Origin: Hyphomicrobium denitrificans 1NES1
GTDB taxonomy: Bacteria > Pseudomonadota > Alphaproteobacteria > Rhizobiales > Hyphomicrobiaceae
Length of the DNA: 64,000 bases
Assembly (NCBI RefSeq): GCF_000230975.2
Contig: NC_021172.1
Coordinates: 620,001-684,000, forward strand
Direction: 5' to 3'
In this document: positions 3,670-62,024 of the stretch, piece by piece
Layout of the letters: each line of letters begins with the position of its first letter
How positions within the stretch are numbered: position 1 is the stretch's first letter
The notes under the pieces: model-generated
What the model was told of the DNA's origin: nothing
Database searches by the model: none
The model's input: only the letters and a program-made list of their open reading frames with translations
Translations under genes and position numbers: made by a program

Positions 3670-6231
3670 TCATCGCATCGCCAAAGGTTTCAACGCTTCG
3701 GCGGCTGCAAGGTAGATTACGGTAATACCCGCGATTGCCGCCAGAATCGGCATCGGCGGTGGGACAAATCCGGCAAATCGGCCGATCGGCGTTAACGCCA
3801 CCAATAAAGCGACCGCTAATGCACCCAATGACGTCCACACGAGAATCCGGTTCGGACGGCCGGTCCATGCCCGCTGCGCTGTTCTGATAACAAAAATTAC
3901 CAGAACCTGCGTCGCGATCGACTCGATAAACCACGCGGTGCGAAATACGTCGATATCCGCTTTGAAGCCGAGCTCCAGAAGGGCGAACGTCGCGAGATCG
4001 AACAGCGACGATAGCGGTCCCATGACGAGCGTGAATCCCAGTACCGAGTTGATATTCCATGCCTGTGGGCGGGCGAGCGCGGCTTCGTCCGCGGAGTCGA
4101 ATGGAATACCGATTTCCGAAAAATCATAGAGAAGATTGTTGAGAAGAATCTGTAGGGGCGTCAGCGGCAAAAAAGGTAGAGCGAGAGAAGCGAGCGCCAT
4201 CGACAGCATATTGCCGAAGTTCGAGCTTGTGCCCATGCGAACGTATTTCATGATGTTTGCGTAGGTCCGCCGGCCTTCGAAGACTCCATCGGCGAGCACG
4301 CCGAGATCGGGCGCGAGGAGAATGATGTCGGCTGCTTCGCGCGCAACGTCGGTTCCCCCCTCGACGGATAATCCGACGTCGGCAGCATGAATGGCCGTGG
4401 CATCGTTGATTCCATCACCGAGGAAGCCGACAGTATTGCCGCTCAAGCGCAACGCCCGCACTATCCGCCCCTTCTGTTCGGGCGAGATGCGGACGAAGAG
4501 ATCGGTCGCCGCCGCCCGATCCGCCAAAGCCCTATCGGTCAGACTATCGATCTCGCTGCCTGTGAGAATGCCGTGTGCCGGGATGCCCAGCATCTCGACC
4601 AGATGCGAGACGACGGGCGCGGCATCGCCGGAAATGATTTTCACGCTTATGCCGGCGTTGACGAGACGCGCCACAGCATTGCGTGCGCTTGCCTTCGGAG
4701 GATCGAGGAAAGCCGCGCATCCTATGAACGTCAGAGCCGCCTCGTCCTCGGGTCCTATTCTCGAGCAATCGGTGCGCATTGCGCGCTGGGCGACTCCAAG
4801 CAGCCGCAAGCCCTCGCGGTTTTTGTCTTCGAAAAGCTTGAGAATGTTTTGGCGCATTACATTGTCAAGCGGGACGATGCTTCCGTCGGACCGTTCCACA
4901 TCCGTGCAGAGACTCAGAAGCGCTTCCGGCGCACCTTTCGTGATCATCTGGCGTGCGTCGCCTCGTGCGACCAAGACTGACGCACGGCGGCGCTCGAAGT
5001 CGAAGGGCGCATCGTCGACGCGGTTCCAACCACCGATCGATGTGGGCGCAACTGTAAGGATCGCATCGTCAAGGTTGCTGCGCATTCCGCTCGCGAAGCG
5101 GCTGTTGAGCCGAACGAGTTCCGCAGCGCGTTCGCTTTCGCGGCCGTCTGCATCGAAATTGCCGACGTGTGCGATCTTTGCTTCAGTCAGCGTTCCTGTC
5201 TTGTCGGTGCACAAGACGTTCATGGCGCCGAGATCGTGGATGGCAGAGAGGCGCTTGACGATGACCCGGCGTTCCGACATCCGGACGGCGCCGCGTGCGA
5301 GCGTCACCGTCATGATCATCGGCAGCAATTCCGGTGTCAGGCCTACCGCTAGCGCGACGGCAAACATGAAACTTTCAAGCGAAAGCCCATGCCTTACGAG
5401 CTGTGTTAGAAGAACGAAGAGTACCAAAAAGGCCGTCAGTCGAAGAATCAGGACGCCGAGCCGGTGCAAACCGCGCTCGAAGCTCGTCGGCATTTCTCTC
5501 GTCTGAACGGAGGCTGCAATTGCACCGAAGCTCGTCTTCCCGCCGACGCGATCGACCATCATCACGGCTTCTCCGCCGACGATCGTGGTACCGGCAAACA
5601 GCGCATTGCTAGCGTCCGCAATCGACGGCGATTTTGACATCTCCGGCGACTTTTCTACCGGGTAAGGCTCGCCCGTCAGGATTGCTTCGTTGGCGAGCGC
5701 GCCACGGCTTGCGAGCACGATGCCATCAGCTGGAACAAGATCGCCGCCGCGTAATTCAACAACGTCGCCACGCACGACGTCCCTGACGGGTAATTCGACA
5801 GGAACCCCGTTGCGGCGCACAGTTGCGGTGATCGCGATCGAACGCTGTAGCGCGGCAATTGCGGATTCGGCTTTGTGTTCTTGGGAGACATCGAGCACGA
5901 TCGACAGCGCAACGATCAGGGCAATGACGACGAAGCTTTGCCAATCTCCCGTCGCGCCGGAAATTGCGGCAGAAATTAGTAGAATGGCGACCAATGGCTC
6001 GGCGACGCGACGCGCTATCTTTGCTATGAGACTTTGATGGCGGCGCGTATCGATGATGTTCGGACCATCGCGCGCGAGCCGCTCTGCCGCCTCAGCCGAC
6101 GTCAATCCCTCGCGGCGGCTTGCCAGCGCGCGCGTCGCTTCGTCGATTGAGACAAGCCAGAACGGCTGCGGTCCCTCAGATCGTGCGCTCCGAAGCGAGG
6201 AGCCGGCGTGGGGCGTCATATACTCAACCAT
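3670..6231 (-). CDS. mgtA: MgtA-type magnesium/cation P-type ATPase
   Basis: An 853-residue membrane ATPase that should import Mg2+ or a related divalent cation. It has the TGE dephosphorylation motif (186-188), the phosphorylation loop CTDKTGTLTE with Asp343, and the hinge GDGIND. The transmembrane segment VGLTPELLPM is nearly the MgtA (P3B) signature. The N-terminal cation-ATPase domain and the C-terminal cation-ATPase helices are present, so the length is normal. The start at 6231 lacks a strong Shine-Dalgarno; ATG 6219 is an alternative. It is convergent with the acyl-CoA synthetase gene and divergent from the FixL-like kinase. Mg2+ specificity is inferred from the family. Confidence 0.85.
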   Translation of the reverse strand: MVEYMTPHAGSSLRSARSEGPQPFWLVSIDEATRALASRREGLTSAEAAERLARDGPNIIDTRRHQSLIAKIARRVAEPLVAILLISAAISGATGDWQSFVVIALIVALSIVLDVSQEHKAESAIAALQRSIAITATVRRNGVPVELPVRDVVRGDVVELRGGDLVPADGIVLASRGALANEAILTGEPYPVEKSPEMSKSPSIADASNALFAGTTIVGGEAVMMVDRVGGKTSFGAIAASVQTREMPTSFERGLHRLGVLILRLTAFLVLFVLLTQLVRHGLSLESFMFAVALAVGLTPELLPMIMTVTLARGAVRMSERRVIVKRLSAIHDLGAMNVLCTDKTGTLTEAKIAHVGNFDADGRESERAAELVRLNSRFASGMRSNLDDAILTVAPTSIGGWNRVDDAPFDFERRRASVLVARGDARQMITKGAPEALLSLCTDVERSDGSIVPLDNVMRQNILKLFEDKNREGLRLLGVAQRAMRTDCSRIGPEDEAALTFIGCAAFLDPPKASARNAVARLVNAGISVKIISGDAAPVVSHLVEMLGIPAHGILTGSEIDSLTDRALADRAAATDLFVRISPEQKGRIVRALRLSGNTVGFLGDGINDATAIHAADVGLSVEGGTDVAREAADIILLAPDLGVLADGVFEGRRTYANIMKYVRMGTSSNFGNMLSMALASLALPFLPLTPLQILLNNLLYDFSEIGIPFDSADEAALARPQAWNINSVLGFTLVMGPLSSLFDLATFALLELGFKADIDVFRTAWFIESIATQVLVIFVIRTAQRAWTGRPNRILVWTSLGALAVALLVALTPIGRFAGFVPPPMPILAAIAGITVIYLAAAEALKPLAMR

Positions 6232-6324
6232 GCATGAAGCATCTCAGCCATGGGTCTGCTAAAGTGCGTGTATCGTGTTAGTTGCCCAACCAAATACGTC
6301 AAACGAACGAAAAAGGGCCGGACT

Positions 6325-8217
6325 ATGCTGCAGACGATCCTCGAATCCGCAGTCGCGGCAATACTGGCCATCGATGATAGCGGCCGAATAAAGATCGCAA
6401 ATCCTGCTGCCGAACGCATGTTCGGCTACACATCAGACGAAATGCTCGGCCGCAATGTCAGCATGTTGATGCCGGAACCGTATCGCACGCAGCATGACCG
6501 ATATATGGAACGCTATCTACGTACGGGGGAGAAGCGGATCATAGGTATCGGCCGGGAGGCTGAAGGCCAGCGCAAGGATGGAACTATTTTTCCAATTCAC
6601 CTTGCCGTCGGTGAGTTTGAGATGTCTGATGAACGGTTCTTTTCGGGGATTATCACAGACCTTAGCGCGCATGCCCGTCTGCAGGCGGAGATTGACCGCC
6701 AGTCGCTGTTGTTTCAGGCCGTCTTTGATTATGTACCCGAAACGCTCGTCATCTCAGCACCCGAGGGCCAGATCGTTCTGATCAATCCGGCTGCTACGCG
6801 CATGTTCGGCTATAGCGCAAGCGAAGCTACCGGACTTGACTGGACAGCGCTTTTCGACGTCCCGCCCGACAAGAAGCAACTGGAAAAAGACTTGGCTGGG
6901 CAACAGGCAGGCGATGGCGGGAGCGTTGCAATCTCCACGGTTCTGCGCCGCAAGGATGGGCGCAAGTTTCCCGCACAGGGGCATATTGCGGTCATTACCG
7001 GTGCTGACCAGACGCAGATGGCAGTCGTCAGTCTTTTCCGAGATATGACCGAGGAGTTGAAGCGGAGAGAAAGTTCTCTGAGGCTTCAAAAACTCGAGGC
7101 TGTTGGGCAACTAACAGGCGGCATAGCCCATGACTTCAATAATCTGTTGACGATCATTTCCGGAAATCTCGAGCTTCTAGAAGGATCGATCTCGAATGCC
7201 GAGGACCGTGAGCTTCTTTCTCGCGCAACGAGGGCCGCTGATTCCGGCGCGCGGCTTACCCGGAGACTGCTGACGTTCGCGCGGCGCAGGCAATTGGCTC
7301 CGGAGGTGATCAATCTGAACGAGCAGGTCCGAAGCATGACCGAGCTTCTTCACCGTACGCTTGGGGATACGATCGACCTGCAAACGAGTTTCGCTCGGGA
7401 TCTTTGGCTGACACGCGCGGATGCGGGCGAAGTCGAAGCCGCGGTCATCAATCTGGCGATCAACGCGCGTGATGCGATGCCAAATGGCGGTAAGCTCTCT
7501 ATCCGAACCAACAATGCAATGCTGGAAAGCGATGAGGTGGGGTTTGAAGGGCCGCTCGTAGCGGGCGATTACGTGCAGATATCGGTTTCCGACAATGGCA
7601 TCGGAATGAATAGAGCAGTGCTTACCCGCGTCTTCGAGCCATTCTTCACGACTAAGCCGCCCGGACGCGGAACAGGATTGGGGCTCAGCACTATCTATGG
7701 TTTCATCAAGCAATCTGGCGGGAACATCACGATTTACAGTGAACCGGGCGTTGGTACGACGGTAAACCTCTATTTCCCGCGCTGCCCCGATTATTCCGGC
7801 GCGGCGGCTTCGGTGGCGGACGCGTCGAAGGAGGAAAGAGGGAGTGGTGAGCGTATCCTAGTCGTCGAAGACAATGGCGACGTGCGCGCATTGACGGTGC
7901 AGCGCCTGCACCGCCTCGGCTATGAGGTTGTCGAGTTTGCCACGGGCGCGGCGGCGCGAGATGCGCTCAAGGGTGGGCTGGAGGTCGATCTGGTATTTAG
8001 CGATATTATGATGCCTGGGGGATTGACGGGGGTCGATCTTGGAAAATGGATCGGTGAATGCCGTTCGGCGCTGCCGGTGATTCTGACGACTGGATTTGCG
8101 GACGAGGCAACCGACATTGCGGCCGTCGCCGACGTATGGCCCATCTTACGCAAGCCCTATACGCAGCGGGATCTTGCGGAAGTCGTGCGCAAAACACTTG
8201 AAAAGCGCAAGGTTTGA
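6325..8217 (+). CDS. Soluble FixL-like heme-PAS hybrid histidine kinase
   Basis: A 630-residue kinase with no membrane segment: PAS1 (1-118), PAS2 (about 128-245), HisKA with His269 (GGIAHDFNNLL), HATPase_c, and a C-terminal receiver (about 510-630, VFSDIMMP). PAS1 closely resembles the FixL oxygen-sensing domain. His57 (TQHDRY) aligns with the proximal heme ligand (His200 of B. japonicum FixL), Arg63 with Arg206, and Arg77 in IIGIGR with the distal Arg220. It should therefore bind heme and switch on oxygen. The His214 equivalent is replaced by Arg71. ATG 6325 has AAGGG upstream; a longer frame opens at 6250. No FixJ-type partner is adjacent, but an OmpR-type regulator and a FixK-like protein follow within 2 kb. 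Confidence 0.88.
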   Translation: MLQTILESAVAAILAIDDSGRIKIANPAAERMFGYTSDEMLGRNVSMLMPEPYRTQHDRYMERYLRTGEKRIIGIGREAEGQRKDGTIFPIHLAVGEFEMSDERFFSGIITDLSAHARLQAEIDRQSLLFQAVFDYVPETLVISAPEGQIVLINPAATRMFGYSASEATGLDWTALFDVPPDKKQLEKDLAGQQAGDGGSVAISTVLRRKDGRKFPAQGHIAVITGADQTQMAVVSLFRDMTEELKRRESSLRLQKLEAVGQLTGGIAHDFNNLLTIISGNLELLEGSISNAEDRELLSRATRAADSGARLTRRLLTFARRRQLAPEVINLNEQVRSMTELLHRTLGDTIDLQTSFARDLWLTRADAGEVEAAVINLAINARDAMPNGGKLSIRTNNAMLESDEVGFEGPLVAGDYVQISVSDNGIGMNRAVLTRVFEPFFTTKPPGRGTGLGLSTIYGFIKQSGGNITIYSEPGVGTTVNLYFPRCPDYSGAAASVADASKEERGSGERILVVEDNGDVRALTVQRLHRLGYEVVEFATGAAARDALKGGLEVDLVFSDIMMPGGLTGVDLGKWIGECRSALPVILTTGFADEATDIAAVADVWPILRKPYTQRDLAEVVRKTLEKRKV

Positions 8218-8278
8218 CCTTCGCTCGCGGTCAAGCAATGTCCGGCCCGGCTTTCGGGTCGCGATGGCGGCGCCGCTA

Positions 8279-8292
8279 TTGATACGCATCAA
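8279..8292. promoter_or_regulatory. Perfect FNR/FixK box before hsp20
   Basis: TTGATACGCATCAA is a perfect TTGAT-N4-ATCAA dyad, centred 93 bp before the Hsp20 start codon. It is the best match of the eight similar boxes in the window. Confidence 0.65.
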
Positions 8293-8378
8293 GGTCGCCC
8301 CATTTTCAGGGAGTATCCGATGTCTGCACAGTGGCGGATATCCCTGTGTCTGTTCAAAGTAAGCGAATGGAGGCTGTG

Positions 8379-9847: not shown

Positions 9848-10546
9848 ATGTTGGGCGCAACGGGTGTTCATGATGTTGTTCCGTACAATCCTTATGCGGG
9901 GCTGTCGAGCGAGGAGAGACCTTGCGCCCGGCAGCGCGATGGGTTTGAGAATGCCACATTCCGGAAGATCGGAGCCAAAGAATACGTTTTCTGTGACGGC
10001 GACCCGAGGACGCACATTTTCTACGTTGAGCAAGGGGTCATTGCGCTGTCGAAAATTCTGGGGGATGGCCGCCGGCAAGTCATCGACTTCGCATACCCGG
10101 GGGATTACATCGGCCTTGGCCTCCTCAAAGAGTACATTTTCGATGCTCAAGCGACCTGCCTCGCTAAGGTTAAGTGCATCCCGGCGTCGGCACTGGAACA
10201 GGCGGCTGCGTCCGATCCAGACCTCGCATTGAAGCTTTACAAGGCGGTATCGGCGGAGCTTACAACCGCTCGAAATCTCCTTGTCTGTGTCGGCCAAGGC
10301 ACCGCAATGGAGCGGATCGCCATGTTTCTGGTCAGGCTGCGCAATCGCGCAGCGATCTCCGGCGCCAACGACGGCGTTTTCAGTCTGCTGATGCGCCGCT
10401 CCGACATCGCAGATCTTCTGGGTCTGACGATCGAGACGGTCAGCCGAACGCTGACGAAGTTGCGCGGTATGCATGTCATCGACATCGTCAATGCGACTGA
10501 GATCCATGTTCTTGACGAGGACAAGCTGGAGCAGCTGGCCGCTTGA
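9848..10546 (+). CDS. Crp/Fnr-family regulator of FixK type
   Basis: A 232-residue transcription factor: a cyclic-nucleotide-binding-like beta-roll (about 25-145), a dimerisation helix, and a C-terminal helix-turn-helix RSDIADLLGLTIETVSRTL. The E-x-x-S-R recognition residues are those of FNR and FixK, which read TTGA half-sites. The N-terminal CX2CX5C cluster of oxygen-sensing FNR is absent, so it should not bind a 4Fe-4S cluster. That makes it FixK-like and dependent on upstream signalling. ATG 9848 has GGAG eight bases upstream. It is the best candidate to bind the TTGA-N6-TCAA boxes spread over the window; that link is inferred. Confidence 0.88.
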   Translation: MLGATGVHDVVPYNPYAGLSSEERPCARQRDGFENATFRKIGAKEYVFCDGDPRTHIFYVEQGVIALSKILGDGRRQVIDFAYPGDYIGLGLLKEYIFDAQATCLAKVKCIPASALEQAAASDPDLALKLYKAVSAELTTARNLLVCVGQGTAMERIAMFLVRLRNRAAISGANDGVFSLLMRRSDIADLLGLTIETVSRTLTKLRGMHVIDIVNATEIHVLDEDKLEQLAA

Positions 10547-56978: not shown

Positions 56979-57036
56979 ATGATCCGGTCTGTGAGCTTTG
57001 TTATTCCTCACCGACACGGAGTCCTGCGAGGATCTC

Positions 57037-59331
57037 ATGCCAAGTTGGTTATCTGACAGTCTGATCCGGCGGATCCTATTCGGTATCGCGCTATCCGGGA
57101 TCGCGCTGGGCGGACTCGCGTGGCTGTTCGGCCGGCCCTTTTGGGCACAGAGTATCTGGGCCTTCGCGACTTTCCCGGTTATCGCCGGACTGGCAGTGTC
57201 GATTGTTCGCGACCTTGCAGTCGGCCGTTTCGGAGTCGACGCAATCGCCCTTCTTTCCATGAGTGGCGCGCTGCTTCTTGGCGAGAACCTTGCCGGGATC
57301 GTGGTCGCGATCATGTATGCGGGCGGCAATCTGCTTGAAGACTATGCCGTCGGTCGGGCGGAACGAGACCTGAAGACGCTCATCGATCGTGCCCCGCGGA
57401 TTGCACATCGATACTCAGGTCGGCAAGTCCAAGACGTCGCGGTTGATGAAATCACCGTTGGCGATCGGCTTTTGGTGCGAGCGGGTGAAGTTCTTCCGGT
57501 CGATGGAATTCTCGCGTCGGAATTCGGCGCAATTGATGAGGCTGCTGTTACGGGCGAACCTTTGCCCGTTGTCCGGCAGCGTAACGCACCTCTTCGCAGC
57601 GGTTCGGTCAACGCCGGCGAGACGTTCGACATGACAGCAACCACGGTTGCTGGTGAGAGTACGTATGCCGGAATCGTTCGAATGGTCACCGCGGCGCAAA
57701 CTGCAAAGGCGCCCTTTATCCGTGTGGCGGATCGCTTTGCGCTGGCATTGGTGCCCACTACGCTCATACTTGCCGGCGGCGCCTGGCTGTTTTCGGGAGA
57801 TGCGGTTCGCGCGCTCGCCGTGCTCGTGGCCTCCACGCCTTGTCCTCTTATTCTTGCGGCGCCTGTTGCCTTCGTGGCGGGCGTCTCGCGCGCTGCGAGA
57901 GACGGCATACTGATCAAGGGCAGTTCCGCGCTTGAATCATTGGCGCGCACGCACACAGTCATGTTTGATAAAACCGGAACGTTGACTGTTGGCGGCGCCC
58001 GACTCGTGGCTATCGAGACGGCGCCGCATTTTTCCTCCGATGATATCCTGCACTTCGCCGGATCGTTGGAGCAGGCATCCCATAATGTTGTGGCGGGTGC
58101 CATCGTAACGGCCGCTCGTGCTCGCGGCATTGCCCTCGTAGGGCCTGAGAATGTCCGTGAAGCGATGGGCTCCGGCATTGAAGGGCGTGTTGCCGGAAAA
58201 TTGGTGAAAGCGGGTTCTGACAAGTTTGTCTTCGGACACGCTAAGCTTCAGCCTTGGGCTGTCCGGGTTCTGCGAAGGGCATCCTGGCGTTCCGCTTTAA
58301 GCGTTTTCGTTTCCGTTGATGAGCAACCTATCGGGGCCCTGCTTCTTGCCGACGAGCTTCGCCGTGAAACGCCGAGAGCCATTCAGGCACTTAGGATGTC
58401 TGGAATTAAGCGCATTGTGATGGTGACGGGAGATCGGGCGGATGCGGCTGAGACAATCGGTGCGGCATTGGATATCGATGCGGTACTTGCCGACCGAGTG
58501 CCTTCCGATAAGGTCGAGGCCGTAGCGGTAGAGCGGCGTTTGCATCCGACCATTATGGTCGGTGATGGCATCAACGATGCGCCGGCCCTGGCGGCGGCTG
58601 ACGTCGGCGTAGCGATGGGCGCGAGGGGTGCCAGCGCTTCGTCGGAAGCGGCCGACGTCGTCATCTTGGTGGATCGCCTTGATAGAGTTGCGGACGCGGT
58701 AACCATTGCCCGGAGGGCATATGGCATAGCCTTGCAGAGTATCTTTATCGGATTGGGGCTTTCCGGTATCGCAATGGTTGCCGCCGCCTTCGGATTGCTA
58801 TCGCCTGTCGCAGGCGCGGTATCGCAGGAATTGATCGATGTGGCGGTGATTCTGAATGCCCTACGGGCACTTTCTCGGGACCGCCGCATGGGCAAGAGCG
58901 CTCTTCCGCGATCGGCGATACGTGAGCTCGAACAAGATCACGAAGTCCTCAATGAAGCTTTGAACAGGTTACGGGAAATCGCCGACAATCTCGACGACGT
59001 ACCGAAAGACATTGCGACGAGCCTCGTCAGCGAGGCACATCAAATTGTCACAAAGCGAGTCGTGGAGCACGAGCGTGAAGATGAGATGGTTGTCTACCCT
59101 CGCCTCAATCGCTCGCTGGGCAGCAATCCCGCTCTTGCGGCCATGAGCCGGGCGCATCGAGAAATTTTGCATCTCTCGCGACTCCTATCCCGGCTGACAG
59201 ATGACATGACAGTCGAAAACGTCGACCGGTACTTTATTCGCGATGCCCAGCGAATTATCGAATCGATCGAAGCGCTCGTCCGGATGCATAACGCGCAGGA
59301 GGAAGATATCTACGAACACGCGTCGATCTGA
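57037..59331 (+). CDS. P1B-5-type metal ATPase with C-terminal hemerythrin domain
   Basis: A 764-residue inner-membrane metal pump. It has the actuator motif AVTGEPLPV, phosphorylation loop MFDKTGTLTVGG and hinge MVGDGINDAPAL. The metal-site motif STPCPL in the transmembrane segment is the TPC signature of P1B-5 pumps (Ni/Fe exporters such as S. meliloti Nia). The nucleotide-site His-Pro of P1B pumps is His-Asn (ASHNVVA). No N-terminal metal domain is present. Residues about 628-764 form a hemerythrin fold: His635, His678 (HEREDE), His707 and His751 with nearby acidic residues, able to bind a di-iron O2 or redox site. ATG 57037 has GAGGA six bases upstream. An FNR-like box precedes it. Confidence 0.88.
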   Translation: MPSWLSDSLIRRILFGIALSGIALGGLAWLFGRPFWAQSIWAFATFPVIAGLAVSIVRDLAVGRFGVDAIALLSMSGALLLGENLAGIVVAIMYAGGNLLEDYAVGRAERDLKTLIDRAPRIAHRYSGRQVQDVAVDEITVGDRLLVRAGEVLPVDGILASEFGAIDEAAVTGEPLPVVRQRNAPLRSGSVNAGETFDMTATTVAGESTYAGIVRMVTAAQTAKAPFIRVADRFALALVPTTLILAGGAWLFSGDAVRALAVLVASTPCPLILAAPVAFVAGVSRAARDGILIKGSSALESLARTHTVMFDKTGTLTVGGARLVAIETAPHFSSDDILHFAGSLEQASHNVVAGAIVTAARARGIALVGPENVREAMGSGIEGRVAGKLVKAGSDKFVFGHAKLQPWAVRVLRRASWRSALSVFVSVDEQPIGALLLADELRRETPRAIQALRMSGIKRIVMVTGDRADAAETIGAALDIDAVLADRVPSDKVEAVAVERRLHPTIMVGDGINDAPALAAADVGVAMGARGASASSEAADVVILVDRLDRVADAVTIARRAYGIALQSIFIGLGLSGIAMVAAAFGLLSPVAGAVSQELIDVAVILNALRALSRDRRMGKSALPRSAIRELEQDHEVLNEALNRLREIADNLDDVPKDIATSLVSEAHQIVTKRVVEHEREDEMVVYPRLNRSLGSNPALAAMSRAHREILHLSRLLSRLTDDMTVENVDRYFIRDAQRIIESIEALVRMHNAQEEDIYEHASI

Positions 59332-59482: not shown

Positions 59483-60829
59483 CTACGCCGTCGATACGAT
59501 CGACGGCTCCAGCGCGTCTACCGCGTCGTGAAGAGATCTTCGGCTGCTTTGATCGAGACCCAACGCCTCAAACGTTCGCTCAAGATATCCGAGAAAAACC
59601 TTCCAATCGCTGGCGTTGATCGGAAGATGCGCGTGAGCGCTCACCATATCTCGCCCAGCATATCGCGTCGGCCCCCCGAGCTCGGAGCAAAGGTACTGAA
59701 TGAGAAGTTTCTCTTCTTGTCGTATGCCGACCATGCTTCGATCGGACCAGAAGCGGCCAACCTGGGGATCGGCTTGCATTCGACCAAGGAGATCGCGAGC
59801 CAATGCCGTGATCGTCGCTCGTCCTCCAATCCGCAAATAAAGCGAGTTTGGCGCTGGGCGCCGGATATCCAAAGCCTTGAGACGGGAGGCCAGGGTCGAT
59901 GGATTCATCTGCAGGAGGTTTGCAGCACCGCCTTTGCCGGACACGCGCCATTTTGCAGCTTCTAGTGCGGCAATGAGATTATTGCGTTCGAAAGCCAGAA
60001 CCTCCTCGGCGGTGACATAATCTCCGTCAATCGTTTCGGCCGGCGTACGGGGGAGGGCCGCCGCCCTTGGCTTCGGACTTGGTGGCAGGACTGCATCCAA
60101 ATCTGACGCGTTACCAAGGATAATTACGCGTTCGAGCACGTTGCGCAGCTCGCGGATATTGCCTGGCCAATCGTAAGCACGAAGCTGCCGCACTTGCTGC
60201 TTTGAAAGACGCGGCGGCTTGCGCCGCAGGCGGCCCGCAATCTCGACGAGAAAATGATCCGACAGCAATCCGATGTCGTCGGCTCGCTCTCGCAGGGGAG
60301 GCACCTCGATCGGGAATGTGCTGAGCCTGTAATAGAGATCAGGCCGAAATCTTCCGGAAGCGGCATCCGCAGCCAAGCAGCGATTCGTTGCTGCAATCAC
60401 TCGGACATCAACCTGCCGGGTTTGATCGTCGCCAACGCGCTCGAACGACATTTGCTGGAGTGCGCGGAGCAGCTTTCCCTGTAGCTCAGGCGGAATCTCT
60501 CCAACTTCGTCGAGAAACAGTGTTCCTTGATGCGCGGTTTCGAGACGCCCTTTCCGGTCACGTGTCGCGCCGCTGAAGGCTCCTCTTACGTGCCCAAAAA
60601 ATTCGCTTTCGAATAGGTCTCTCGGAACGGCTGCGCAATTCACCACCACAAGGGGTTGGCGTGCACGTCGGCTGTGCTCATGGATTCGTCTGGCGATGAG
60701 TTCTTTGCCAACACCGGACTCTCCGAGGACGAGTACGGTGGCATCGGTCATCGCAACCGCGTCTGCGCGCGCCACACACTGCAGAAGGGTTCGGCTTTGA
60801 CCGATAATCGAGGAACCTGCATCGATCAT
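59483..60829 (-). CDS. Sigma-54 activator with C-terminal truncated-globin domain
   Basis: A 448-residue regulator. The AAA+ core starts at once, without a receiver, GAF or PAS domain: Walker A GESGVGKE (36-43), sigma-54 contact loop GAFSGA (83-88, Ser for the usual Thr), Walker B LFLDEVGE, and R-finger region FRPDLYYRL. A FIS-type helix-turn-helix follows (about 282-323). Residues about 328-425 read as a truncated hemoglobin: YLRIGGRATITALARDLL, DPQVGRFW with Phe360 at the CD1 position, LGGPTRYAGRDM, and His399 (SAHAHL) at the proximal heme-ligand position. A heme-bound C-terminal sensor for O2 or NO would control ATPase activity in trans. I know no characterised protein with this order. It is convergent with the hemerythrin-ATPase. 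Confidence 0.85.
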   Translation of the reverse strand: MIDAGSSIIGQSRTLLQCVARADAVAMTDATVLVLGESGVGKELIARRIHEHSRRARQPLVVVNCAAVPRDLFESEFFGHVRGAFSGATRDRKGRLETAHQGTLFLDEVGEIPPELQGKLLRALQQMSFERVGDDQTRQVDVRVIAATNRCLAADAASGRFRPDLYYRLSTFPIEVPPLRERADDIGLLSDHFLVEIAGRLRRKPPRLSKQQVRQLRAYDWPGNIRELRNVLERVIILGNASDLDAVLPPSPKPRAAALPRTPAETIDGDYVTAEEVLAFERNNLIAALEAAKWRVSGKGGAANLLQMNPSTLASRLKALDIRRPAPNSLYLRIGGRATITALARDLLGRMQADPQVGRFWSDRSMVGIRQEEKLLIQYLCSELGGPTRYAGRDMVSAHAHLPINASDWKVFLGYLERTFEALGLDQSSRRSLHDAVDALEPSIVSTA

Positions 60830-60890
60830 TTACGAAAATTCGCAAGCAGTTATGATTTTTCACGATACCGCTGTTGCGAGTTTTCGTAAA
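60829..60890. promoter_or_regulatory. Inverted repeat at the globin-regulator start, likely enhancer/operator
   Basis: TTTACGAAAATTCGCAA (60829-60845) and TTGCGAGTTTTCGTAAA (60874-60890) are inverted copies matching at 16 of 17 positions with a 28-bp spacer. One arm abuts the regulator's start codon, so binding would repress its own gene. The pair lies 73-134 bp upstream of a sigma-54-like promoter, a usual distance for activator sites. Confidence 0.6.
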
Positions 60891-60962
60891 TGCATCGCCG
60901 TGAATCAGGAAGCGCAGCAGTAAGTACATCATAATACAGAAGATTTTCTGCCTGCACGGCCA

Positions 60963-60978
60963 TGGCACGCGAAATGCT
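60963..60978 (+). promoter_or_regulatory. Sigma-54 (-24/-12) promoter before the secreted cupin gene
   Basis: TGGCACG-CGAA-ATGCT matches the consensus TGGCACG-N4-TTGCW with one mismatch. Transcription would start near 60990, about 30 bp before the ATG at 61022. The divergent gene encodes a sigma-54 activator. Confidence 0.55.
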
Positions 60979-61021: not shown

Positions 61022-61507
61022 ATGCTCAAAACATCGATTTTTTTATCAGCGCTTTTTCTGACTGCGCAAAGCGCCAGCGCGGCCGAGATCGGTTCTAATC
61101 TTCAGCCGCTCTCCTTCGGCAAGGATCAAACGATCGTCGATATCAGCAAGGCTGTTTGGGGCCCGCTCAAGGTTGATGGGCTACCGGAGGGAGGAGAGAT
61201 TGCCGTGCTCCGGGGCGATCTTTCCAAGGGTGACGCCGAAGTGCTTCTGCGGTTTCCGCCCGGTTATAGGGTTCCCAATCATAGCCATACATCGGATGAA
61301 CTTTATCTCTGGCTGAGCGGTTCATTCACCCTCATCGCGCACGATGGGACGAAGACGGTTTTCAACGGACCAGCGTATATCAGCTTTCCCGGCAACGCTC
61401 CGCCACATGGCCTCGAATGTGGAGCGGCCGCACCGTGTGTGCTCTATCTCAAGTATTCCCGACCATTCGACATCCAATATTTTCCGGAACCGCCGCCGAA
61501 AAGATAG
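61022..61507 (+). CDS. Exported cupin-domain protein
   Basis: A 161-residue periplasmic protein. The signal peptide ends ASAA (residue 20). A single cupin fold follows: FPPGYRVPNHSHTSDELYLWLSGSF in continuous order gives the metal motif HSH-x(4)-E, with the second motif near FPGNAPPHGLEC. This is a complete metal-binding cupin. The function is unknown; small exported cupins of this type resemble ChrR-like and DUF4437-type proteins. GGGAGAG lies eight bases before ATG 61022. A sigma-54-like promoter suggests it is the target of the globin-containing activator. Confidence 0.82.
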   Translation: MLKTSIFLSALFLTAQSASAAEIGSNLQPLSFGKDQTIVDISKAVWGPLKVDGLPEGGEIAVLRGDLSKGDAEVLLRFPPGYRVPNHSHTSDELYLWLSGSFTLIAHDGTKTVFNGPAYISFPGNAPPHGLECGAAAPCVLYLKYSRPFDIQYFPEPPPKR

Positions 61508-61550: not shown

Positions 61551-62024
61551 ATGGGGATAAGGAGCGCGACCAATCGCGTCGGGGTGTTCGCCGTGTGCGC
61601 AATGGCGTTCACGCAGACCACGGCGCAGGGTACTGGCTTGACCCATGTCCTGCAGCCCGGCAGCTACCAAGTCGAAGTAATTGCCGAAGACCCCGCGACT
61701 GGGCGACAGCGAACGGTCCGACGCGTAGAGCGATGTCTCGAAGCGTCGGCGATCGTCAACCATGAAATCTTTGCCATATTGAGCGACATACCTGCATCGG
61801 CGTGCCCCAAATATGAGGTTTGTGCCGGCGAGACGCGCACCGGCTTTATCGCGCAATGCGCACCTGCCAATCCATCTACTGCCGTCGGCATGTTTGCTCT
61901 CGAGAGCTCCGCCTTCCGCGGCCGAATCGAGGTCAAGGACGCAACTGGCAAAGTGACGAACGTCGAAATCCAATATGGCCTGCGGACTGGGGCATGCAAT
62001 GCGCCAGCGTCGTCGCCGCAATGA
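61551..62024 (+). CDS. Exported protein of unknown function (DUF3617-like)
   Basis: A 157-residue protein with a signal peptide (cleavage near TTAQG, residue 27). LQPGSYQVEVIAEDPATG and later cysteines in CLEAS, ACPKYEVC and AQCAP recall the DUF3617 beta-barrel family, but the match is loose. It begins 43 bp after the cupin stop with AAGG close to the ATG, so the two are probably cotranscribed. The function is unknown. Confidence 0.7.
   Translation: MGIRSATNRVGVFAVCAMAFTQTTAQGTGLTHVLQPGSYQVEVIAEDPATGRQRTVRRVERCLEASAIVNHEIFAILSDIPASACPKYEVCAGETRTGFIAQCAPANPSTAVGMFALESSAFRGRIEVKDATGKVTNVEIQYGLRTGACNAPASSPQ

Follow-up and report, generated by a model that had tools for sequence, protein, structure and literature searches.

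A sigma-54 activator gene of Hyphomicrobium denitrificans with a truncated globin behind its DNA-binding domain: a conserved family and a candidate heme sensor

Sigma-54 activators are usually gated via an N-terminal domain. In the stretch of the Hyphomicrobium denitrificans 1NES1 genome analysed here (64,000 nucleotides; the window), one activator gene encodes a truncated globin behind the helix-turn-helix (HTH), and a sensor in this place raises the question whether DNA binding or ring assembly could be the step on which a signal acts. The gene and its domains are the following.

59483..60829, minus strand: sigma-54 activator gene with a C-terminal truncated globin, 448 aa, ATG start (open reading frame, translation and Pfam)
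60095..60808, minus strand: AAA+ domain with its lid, residues 8-245, L1 motif GAFSGA (PF00158, PF25601 and motif counts)
59873..59992, minus strand: Fis-type HTH, residues 280-319 (HTH_8, PF02954; 1.9e-5, 24.7 bits against a cut-off of 22)
59504..59845, minus strand: truncated globin domain, residues 329-442 (Bac_globin, PF01152; 1.1e-11, 45.4 bits against a cut-off of 21)

The domain architecture of this protein is certain. The original prediction had proposed a sigma-54 AAA+ core followed by a Fis-type HTH and a globin, and all four Pfam domains were found in the sequence: Sigma54_activat at residues 8-175 (8.7e-67), AAA_lid_14 at residues 180-245 (1.3e-19), the HTH and the globin, the last by a significant match in the PF01152 search that had been suggested as a check. 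The ATG is immediately preceded by an in-frame TAA. Pfam found no N-terminal sensor and no receiver domain, the AAA+ domain starting at residue 8; this lack of an N-terminal sensor, also predicted, is shared by 43 of the 51 fused proteins collected below. The features expected of a sigma-54 activator, namely an AAA+ domain with Walker motifs, a GAFTGA-type L1 loop and a Fis-type HTH, are all present, and Ser for Thr in the L1 motif (GAFSGA for GAFTGA) is presumably tolerated without loss. The host genome contains one RpoN gene and, elsewhere, two further PF01152 matches. Among the NCBIfam models NorR scored best on the AAA+/HTH part, but assignment to the NorR equivalog was rejected, the score being 337.8 bits against a cut-off of 476 and covering model positions 190-508 only, without the N-terminal GAF. 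The PADLOC RtcR/PspF CARF models also matched the activator (4.1e-102), but through the AAA+/HTH part alone, and were set aside.

We collected 51 full-length fused proteins of the same domain order from several sources, this one and 50 others, and their standing as a family is well supported. Listing the proteins that combine a sigma-54 AAA+ core and a globin, as suggested with the original prediction, thus gives at least 51, a lower bound because the search with the AAA+ part scored 7999 candidates and the best 120 of 3399 proteins were used. The search with the globin part among activator-length proteins gave 24 proteins and that with the globin part of a PAS-containing relative gave 7; the AAA+-part search added more. 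P0021, P0035 and P0048 (incomplete or frame-shifted) and P0026 (a longer reading of P0027) were dropped. The prediction had known no characterised example, and this is borne out as far as searches of one open-access library reach, in which no published sigma-54 activator with a C-terminal globin was found. One source's automatic protein name reads 'transcriptional regulator with GAF, ATPase, and Fis domain/truncated hemoglobin YjbI', so the domains are already on record in databases.

Within the family, the Walker A Lys and the Walker B Asp are present in 51/51 proteins and a GAFTGA-type L1 (GAFTGA, GAFSGA, GSFTGA or GSFSGA) in 49/51. The AAA+ core is N-terminal in 43, with at most 85 residues ahead of Walker A. 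In the remaining eight the N-terminus is longer; a PAS match was obtained there in six, P0033 gave no match, and P0024 matched PF00211, by its name a cyclase family. Since an N-terminal region, PAS-type or unassigned, precedes the AAA+ domain in seven relatives, the globin is not always the sole possible input. P0024 (637 aa, the protein with the PF00211 N-terminus) has a degenerate L1 (RSLPGM) and Walker B (LDHV) and is perhaps no longer a sigma-54 activator. In the AAA+ tree, midpoint-rooted only and calculated without P0024, three groups were obtained: 43 fused proteins without an N-terminal domain, 7 fused proteins with one, and 75 non-fused proteins. The nearest non-fused relatives, among the matches listed, are mostly PAS activators that end just past the HTH. 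In the globin tree, which has few columns and many unresolved forks and left out L001, L064 and L067, the fused state needs three changes.

The distribution was measured with a profile of the globin part. In the genus 3/22 genomes match, all in frames of 448-502 aa, and in the family 10/103, the other seven being in frames of 127-204 aa. With at most 11 candidates scored per genome, at least 15 of 397 genomes of the order match, two of them in activator-length frames, and at a stricter threshold at least 2 of 385 genomes of the class, this one and one with a 127-aa frame. In a named collection, 32 loci encode a globin relative: two are fused (L014, a Hyphomicrobium MAG, and L027, a Woeseiaceae MAG), 27 encode a globin alone (121-155 aa) and come from several phyla, the open frame of L023 is longer and lacks Walker A, and the frames of L034 and L045 are broken. 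As far as length (53,203) and sequence tell, L014 and the Hyphomicrobium genome G289 are the same contig. Around the standalone globin genes no recurrent neighbour function was found among 106 heuristically called ORFs at 28 loci, with at most 4 of the 106 ORFs per family among the families listed (TfoX_N, PNPOx_N).

To place the globin residues, the domain was mapped by sequence alignment to the solved TrHbN of Shewanella benthica (8UGZ, PMC11904497); in the PDB the globin profile matches group 1 truncated hemoglobins best, among them 9yg7 (6.9e-17) and 8ugz. The prediction of His399 as the proximal residue holds: it takes position F8, aligned with the heme ligand His69(F8) of the S. benthica protein, and is His in 51/51 fused proteins. 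The Phe that had been predicted at CD1 was misplaced, because the residue aligned with Tyr34 of S. benthica TrHbN is Trp361, and Phe360 sits one position earlier. The other pocket positions are Leu348 (B10), Glu372 (E7), Leu375 (E10) and Leu376 (E11); G8 is presumably Phe412, placed by its usual offset from F8. Among the collected fused proteins Trp361 is kept in 51/51 and Glu372 in 50/51, while Leu348 is found in 38/51, with Phe there in 9; the glycines 335, 336 and 385 are kept in 51/51, 48/51 and 51/51. Family score, glycine motifs and proximal His all mark the domain as a truncated hemoglobin (PF01152). The standalone relatives have His at F8 in 51/51, Trp at CD1 in 40 and Glu at E7 in 43, and since the two sets agree at the pocket positions, the fused domain retains the pocket of its standalone kin. 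The standalone set left out L034 and L045 (open frames of 73 and 43 aa); the pocket alignment left out L064 and L067, and its fused side comprised 29 rows, including P0021 and P0026 and without P0029, P0030, P0031 and P0033.

The globin domain is under strong purifying selection and as constrained as the AAA+ domain: between this genome (G000) and a second Hyphomicrobium genome, G397, dN/dS was 0.026 for the globin and 0.024 for the AAA+ domain, with dS near saturation. Identity between G000 and G289 was 22% in the linker, 77% in the AAA+ domain, 81% in the HTH and 68% in the globin. Taken from the alignment, the domain is predicted to bind heme. A sensory role for it is likely, and it is plausible that the globin is a heme sensor and implies a different control mechanism for a sigma-54 activator.

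Directly upstream of the activator lies an inverted repeat that is the only one of its kind in the window (19-nt arms, at most one mismatch, gap 10-60). It resolves to two of three 16-bp dyads of the form TTRYGA-N4-TCRYAA, which are followed by a promoter-like box.

60830..60845, no strand: dyad A TTACGAAAATTCGCAA, candidate enhancer site, abutting the activator start codon
60850..60865, no strand: dyad M TTATGATTTTTCACGA, candidate enhancer site, 11/12 fixed positions
60874..60889, no strand: dyad B TTGCGAGTTTTCGTAA, candidate enhancer site
60963..60977, plus strand: candidate sigma-54 (-24/-12) promoter TGGCACGCGAAATGC, starting 89 bp after the dyad B start

Three dyads with a spacing of 20/24 were found at all three Hyphomicrobium loci examined, the orthologous ones starting at 10090, 10110 and 10134 in G397 (L073) and at 1521, 1541 and 1565 in G289 (L074). 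Of a possible 36, the arrays of G000, G397 and G289 scored 35, 33 and 31, the best of 5000 dinucleotide shuffles each being 26, a test that is partly circular because the dyad consensus was read from those three loci; in G397 the score of 33 is also reached with a spacing of 30/24. The locus of a distant PAS-containing relative, L027, did not enter the consensus; within its 244-bp intergenic region one dyad matches at 12/12 positions and a second at 11/12, and across 20.4 kb nothing else reaches 11. The middle dyad is absent there, and the outer two lie 42 bp apart instead of 44. In the 3.8-Mb host genome the dyad motif has three exact matches, two at this locus and the third in the first codons of another ORF. 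The conservation of the dyads as a candidate enhancer array is, on this comparison, well supported. An earlier dyad pattern, TTNCGAANNTTCGNAA, was rejected since with one mismatch it matched 18 places against 12 for the backward control; its sole other exact match is inside an ORF. Dyad A abuts the activator start codon in G000 and G289, and in G397 it overlaps the start codon by one base if the protein starts at the Met of MTDN; this position suggests autoregulation of the activator.

The box, of the form GG-N10-GC, is kept at the orthologous place in G397 and was found at four loci, reading TGGCACGCGAAATGC, TGGCACGCAAAATGC, TGGCATGCCTTCTGC and TGGCACGGTTTCTGC in G000, G397, G289 and L027. 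In the same order, its start is 89, 87, 90 and 90 bp away from that of the nearest dyad and 133, 131, 134 and 132 bp away from that of the outer dyad. Taken alone, the box does not exceed its chance frequency in the window (5 against 4.72 expected). A pattern of half-site plus box was tried as a specific marker and rejected: 11/22 genus genomes match, 8 of them without the activator, with 15 matches against 7 for the backward control, and in G289 the match is not at the activator.

The box faces two genes transcribed away from the activator.

61022..61507, plus strand: divergent cupin gene, 161 aa, probable target (PF12973, 2.7e-7; ortholog in G397)
61551..62024, plus strand: second gene of the probable operon, 157 aa (its ortholog adjoins the cupin gene in G397)

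An ATG at 60962 would lengthen the cupin ORF; the start at 61022 was set after the G397 ortholog, whose ORF begins there. No family was found for the 157-aa second protein; in both G000 and G397 the divergent genes encode the cupin protein and a protein of 155-157 aa without family. At E <= 1e-20 the cupin gene occurs in exactly 2/22 genus genomes, G000 and G397, both with the activator, and the second protein has strong matches in these two and weak ones in five more of the 22. In G289, which has the activator, the cupin gene is absent and the divergent genes are a molybdopterin oxidoreductase and then a PQQ dehydrogenase. In L027 the genes at 5238-8327 on the minus strand, divergent to the PAS-bearing globin activator, encode a protein without Pfam match, a Cu/Zn superoxide dismutase, an HTHP heme protein and an AhpC/TSA redoxin, and a ferritin-like gene follows beyond the redoxin gene after a gap. 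The gene set of L027 points to oxidative stress as a first candidate signal, and the other loci do not decide.

The computation gave the domain order, the conserved family, the kept heme-pocket positions and the conserved dyad array with its box. The explanation that we prefer, with a probability of about 0.6, is that the protein is a one-component heme-based sigma-54 (RpoN) activator that serves one local operon and responds to a redox, peroxide or gas signal. Its dimers would bind the three dyads in a row between the activator gene and the divergent operon, and three dimers would form one AAA+ hexamer. The hexamer could then reach sigma-54 RNA polymerase at the -24/-12 box, which lies some 80 bp from the centre of the last dyad, and this contact would turn on transcription of the cupin operon. 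Whether the hexamer becomes active would be decided from the C-terminal side by a change at the heme of the globin (O2, NO, CO, peroxide or iron redox state), and the heme state may act on DNA binding by the HTH dimers or on assembly of the AAA+ ring on the three dyads. Heme binding, the ligand, the sign of control, the activation of the cupin operon and autoregulation are what we infer. The variation of the divergent genes by locus (cupin; molybdopterin oxidoreductase; SOD/HTHP/redoxin) counts against this explanation. More tentatively, at slightly less than even odds, the family may be a class of one-component activators that have a truncated hemoglobin, positioned after the DNA-binding domain, as their only sensor; it would gate AAA+ ring assembly on a three-dyad enhancer and read a redox, peroxide or gas signal at heme in an unusual Trp(CD1)/Glu(E7) pocket. 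If this is true, truncated globins would serve directly as sensors of transcription factors, and sigma-54 activators would gain a sensor working from the C-terminal side; a little-studied kind of truncated globin may be linked to gene control. Through the predicted enhancers and promoter box, a reporter can test the idea directly.

It is also conceivable, although unlikely, that the globin tethered to the activator has an enzyme-like, scavenging or dimerisation role and is not a signal input, and that control is exerted via the activator level or a partner protein, as PspF is controlled by its partner protein PspA. A partner is conceivable because 43/51 fused proteins have no N-terminal input, and many truncated globins are enzymes on NO or peroxide (PMC4720485). 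Against such a module speaks the fixed place of the globin behind the HTH in 51 proteins, with or without an N-terminal domain, and a regulator that, judged from the motif counts, serves one or a few local genes would be a poor site for a bulk enzyme. A partner nearby was considered in the neighbouring P-type ATPase with a hemerythrin domain and rejected, there being no such gene among the ORFs of the G397 stretch. The globin fold could further be kept for sensing without heme, as in the stressosome protein RsbR, where a non-heme globin domain is the sensor. The unusual Trp at CD1 and Glu at E7 would fit this, but the proximal His, invariant in both the fused and the standalone set, and the agreement of the two sets at the pocket positions make it rather improbable.

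That the activator acts on genes elsewhere, with the dyads beside the cupin gene used for autoregulation only, we regard as very improbable. Such activators (bEBPs) are often self-regulating and dyad A abuts the start codon of the activator itself, but two of the three exact motif copies in the whole genome are at this locus, at four loci the divergent side carries the box at a constant distance, and the cupin gene accompanies the activator in 2/22 genus genomes. A chance fusion, an assembly error or a decaying gene has next to no probability for this protein and is excluded for the family, as the same junction occurs in 51 full-length proteins from several sources. Single members do show damage, the globin part of P0048 looking frame-shifted, P0021 and P0035 being incomplete and the L1 and Walker B of P0024 being degenerate; against decay here stand the low dN/dS in the globin and AAA+ parts and the presence of the fusion in three genus genomes.

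The preferred reading, a heme-based activator, can be compared with several known systems. To our knowledge PspF has no domain behind its HTH, unlike the globin activator. Sigma-54 activators without an N-terminal domain (PMC7175178), PspF among them, resemble it in their N-terminal AAA+ core followed by a DNA-binding domain. By analogy, the closest worked-out model is NorR. According to PMC2941729, NorR is the NO-responsive sigma-54 activator of norVW, its three enhancer sites are the scaffold for the oligomer, and repression of the AAA+ domain by its N-terminal iron domain ends when NO binds. Both are one-component sigma-54 activators beside a divergent target with three enhancer sites, the target here being a probable one and the sites candidates, and iron-based sensing is proposed here also; whereas NorR has an N-terminal GAF domain with non-heme iron, the globin activator lacks such an N-terminus and has its globin behind the HTH. 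In Myxococcus (PMC11841059) a separate globin kinase feeds an NtrC-like sigma-54 activator of oxygen-related genes (NmpRSTU / AfGcHK). There a heme globin feeds the activator, as is proposed here, but it is a protoglobin domain in a separate histidine kinase with a phosphorelay, and here globin and activator are one protein. Globin-coupled sensors are likewise chimeric regulators with a globin sensor, but they are described with an N-terminal 3/3 globin and a variable C-terminal part (PMC1457004); as the globin here is C-terminal and of the PF01152 type, membership of that class was rejected.

For the pocket, the S. benthica protein (subgroup TrHbN-2) is the nearest reference. According to PMC11904497, it forms no stable O2 complex and Tyr(CD1) is implicated in its peroxide reactivity. 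The fused family shares with it the proximal His and hydrophobic B10 and E11 residues, but that protein is single-domain, has Tyr at CD1 and Val at E7 in place of Trp and Glu, and is three residues shorter between CD1 and the E helix. Since the fused family has neither Tyr(CD1) nor a hydrophobic E7, it may follow a different chemistry; at CD1 (Trp, no hydroxyl) and at E7 (Glu) the analogy to the peroxide-reactive protein is weak. As to a possible membership of TrHbN-2, the best PDB matches are of the S. benthica type, but at E7 Glu stands where that protein has a hydrophobic residue.

Other genes and sites of the window were noted as well. The P-type ATPase, of the cadmium/heavy-metal kind and with a C-terminal hemerythrin domain (PF01814, 2.8e-11), is encoded at 56998-59331 on the plus strand, and its 3' end faces the globin activator. 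Beyond the second gene of the probable operon, at 63766-62042 on the minus strand, a protein combines an aminoglycoside-phosphotransferase-like part (PF01636) with an AAA_33 kinase part (PF13671). The window has nine TTGA-N6-TCAA sites, which we take to be FNR/FixK-like, against 1.06 expected (0/100 shuffles reach 9), and it may hold a gene cluster under an FNR/FixK-type regulator. The sites are at 781, 8279, 14621, 21212, 30969, 31413, 42040, 47101 and 56965, the last just upstream of the first start codon of the P-type ATPase.
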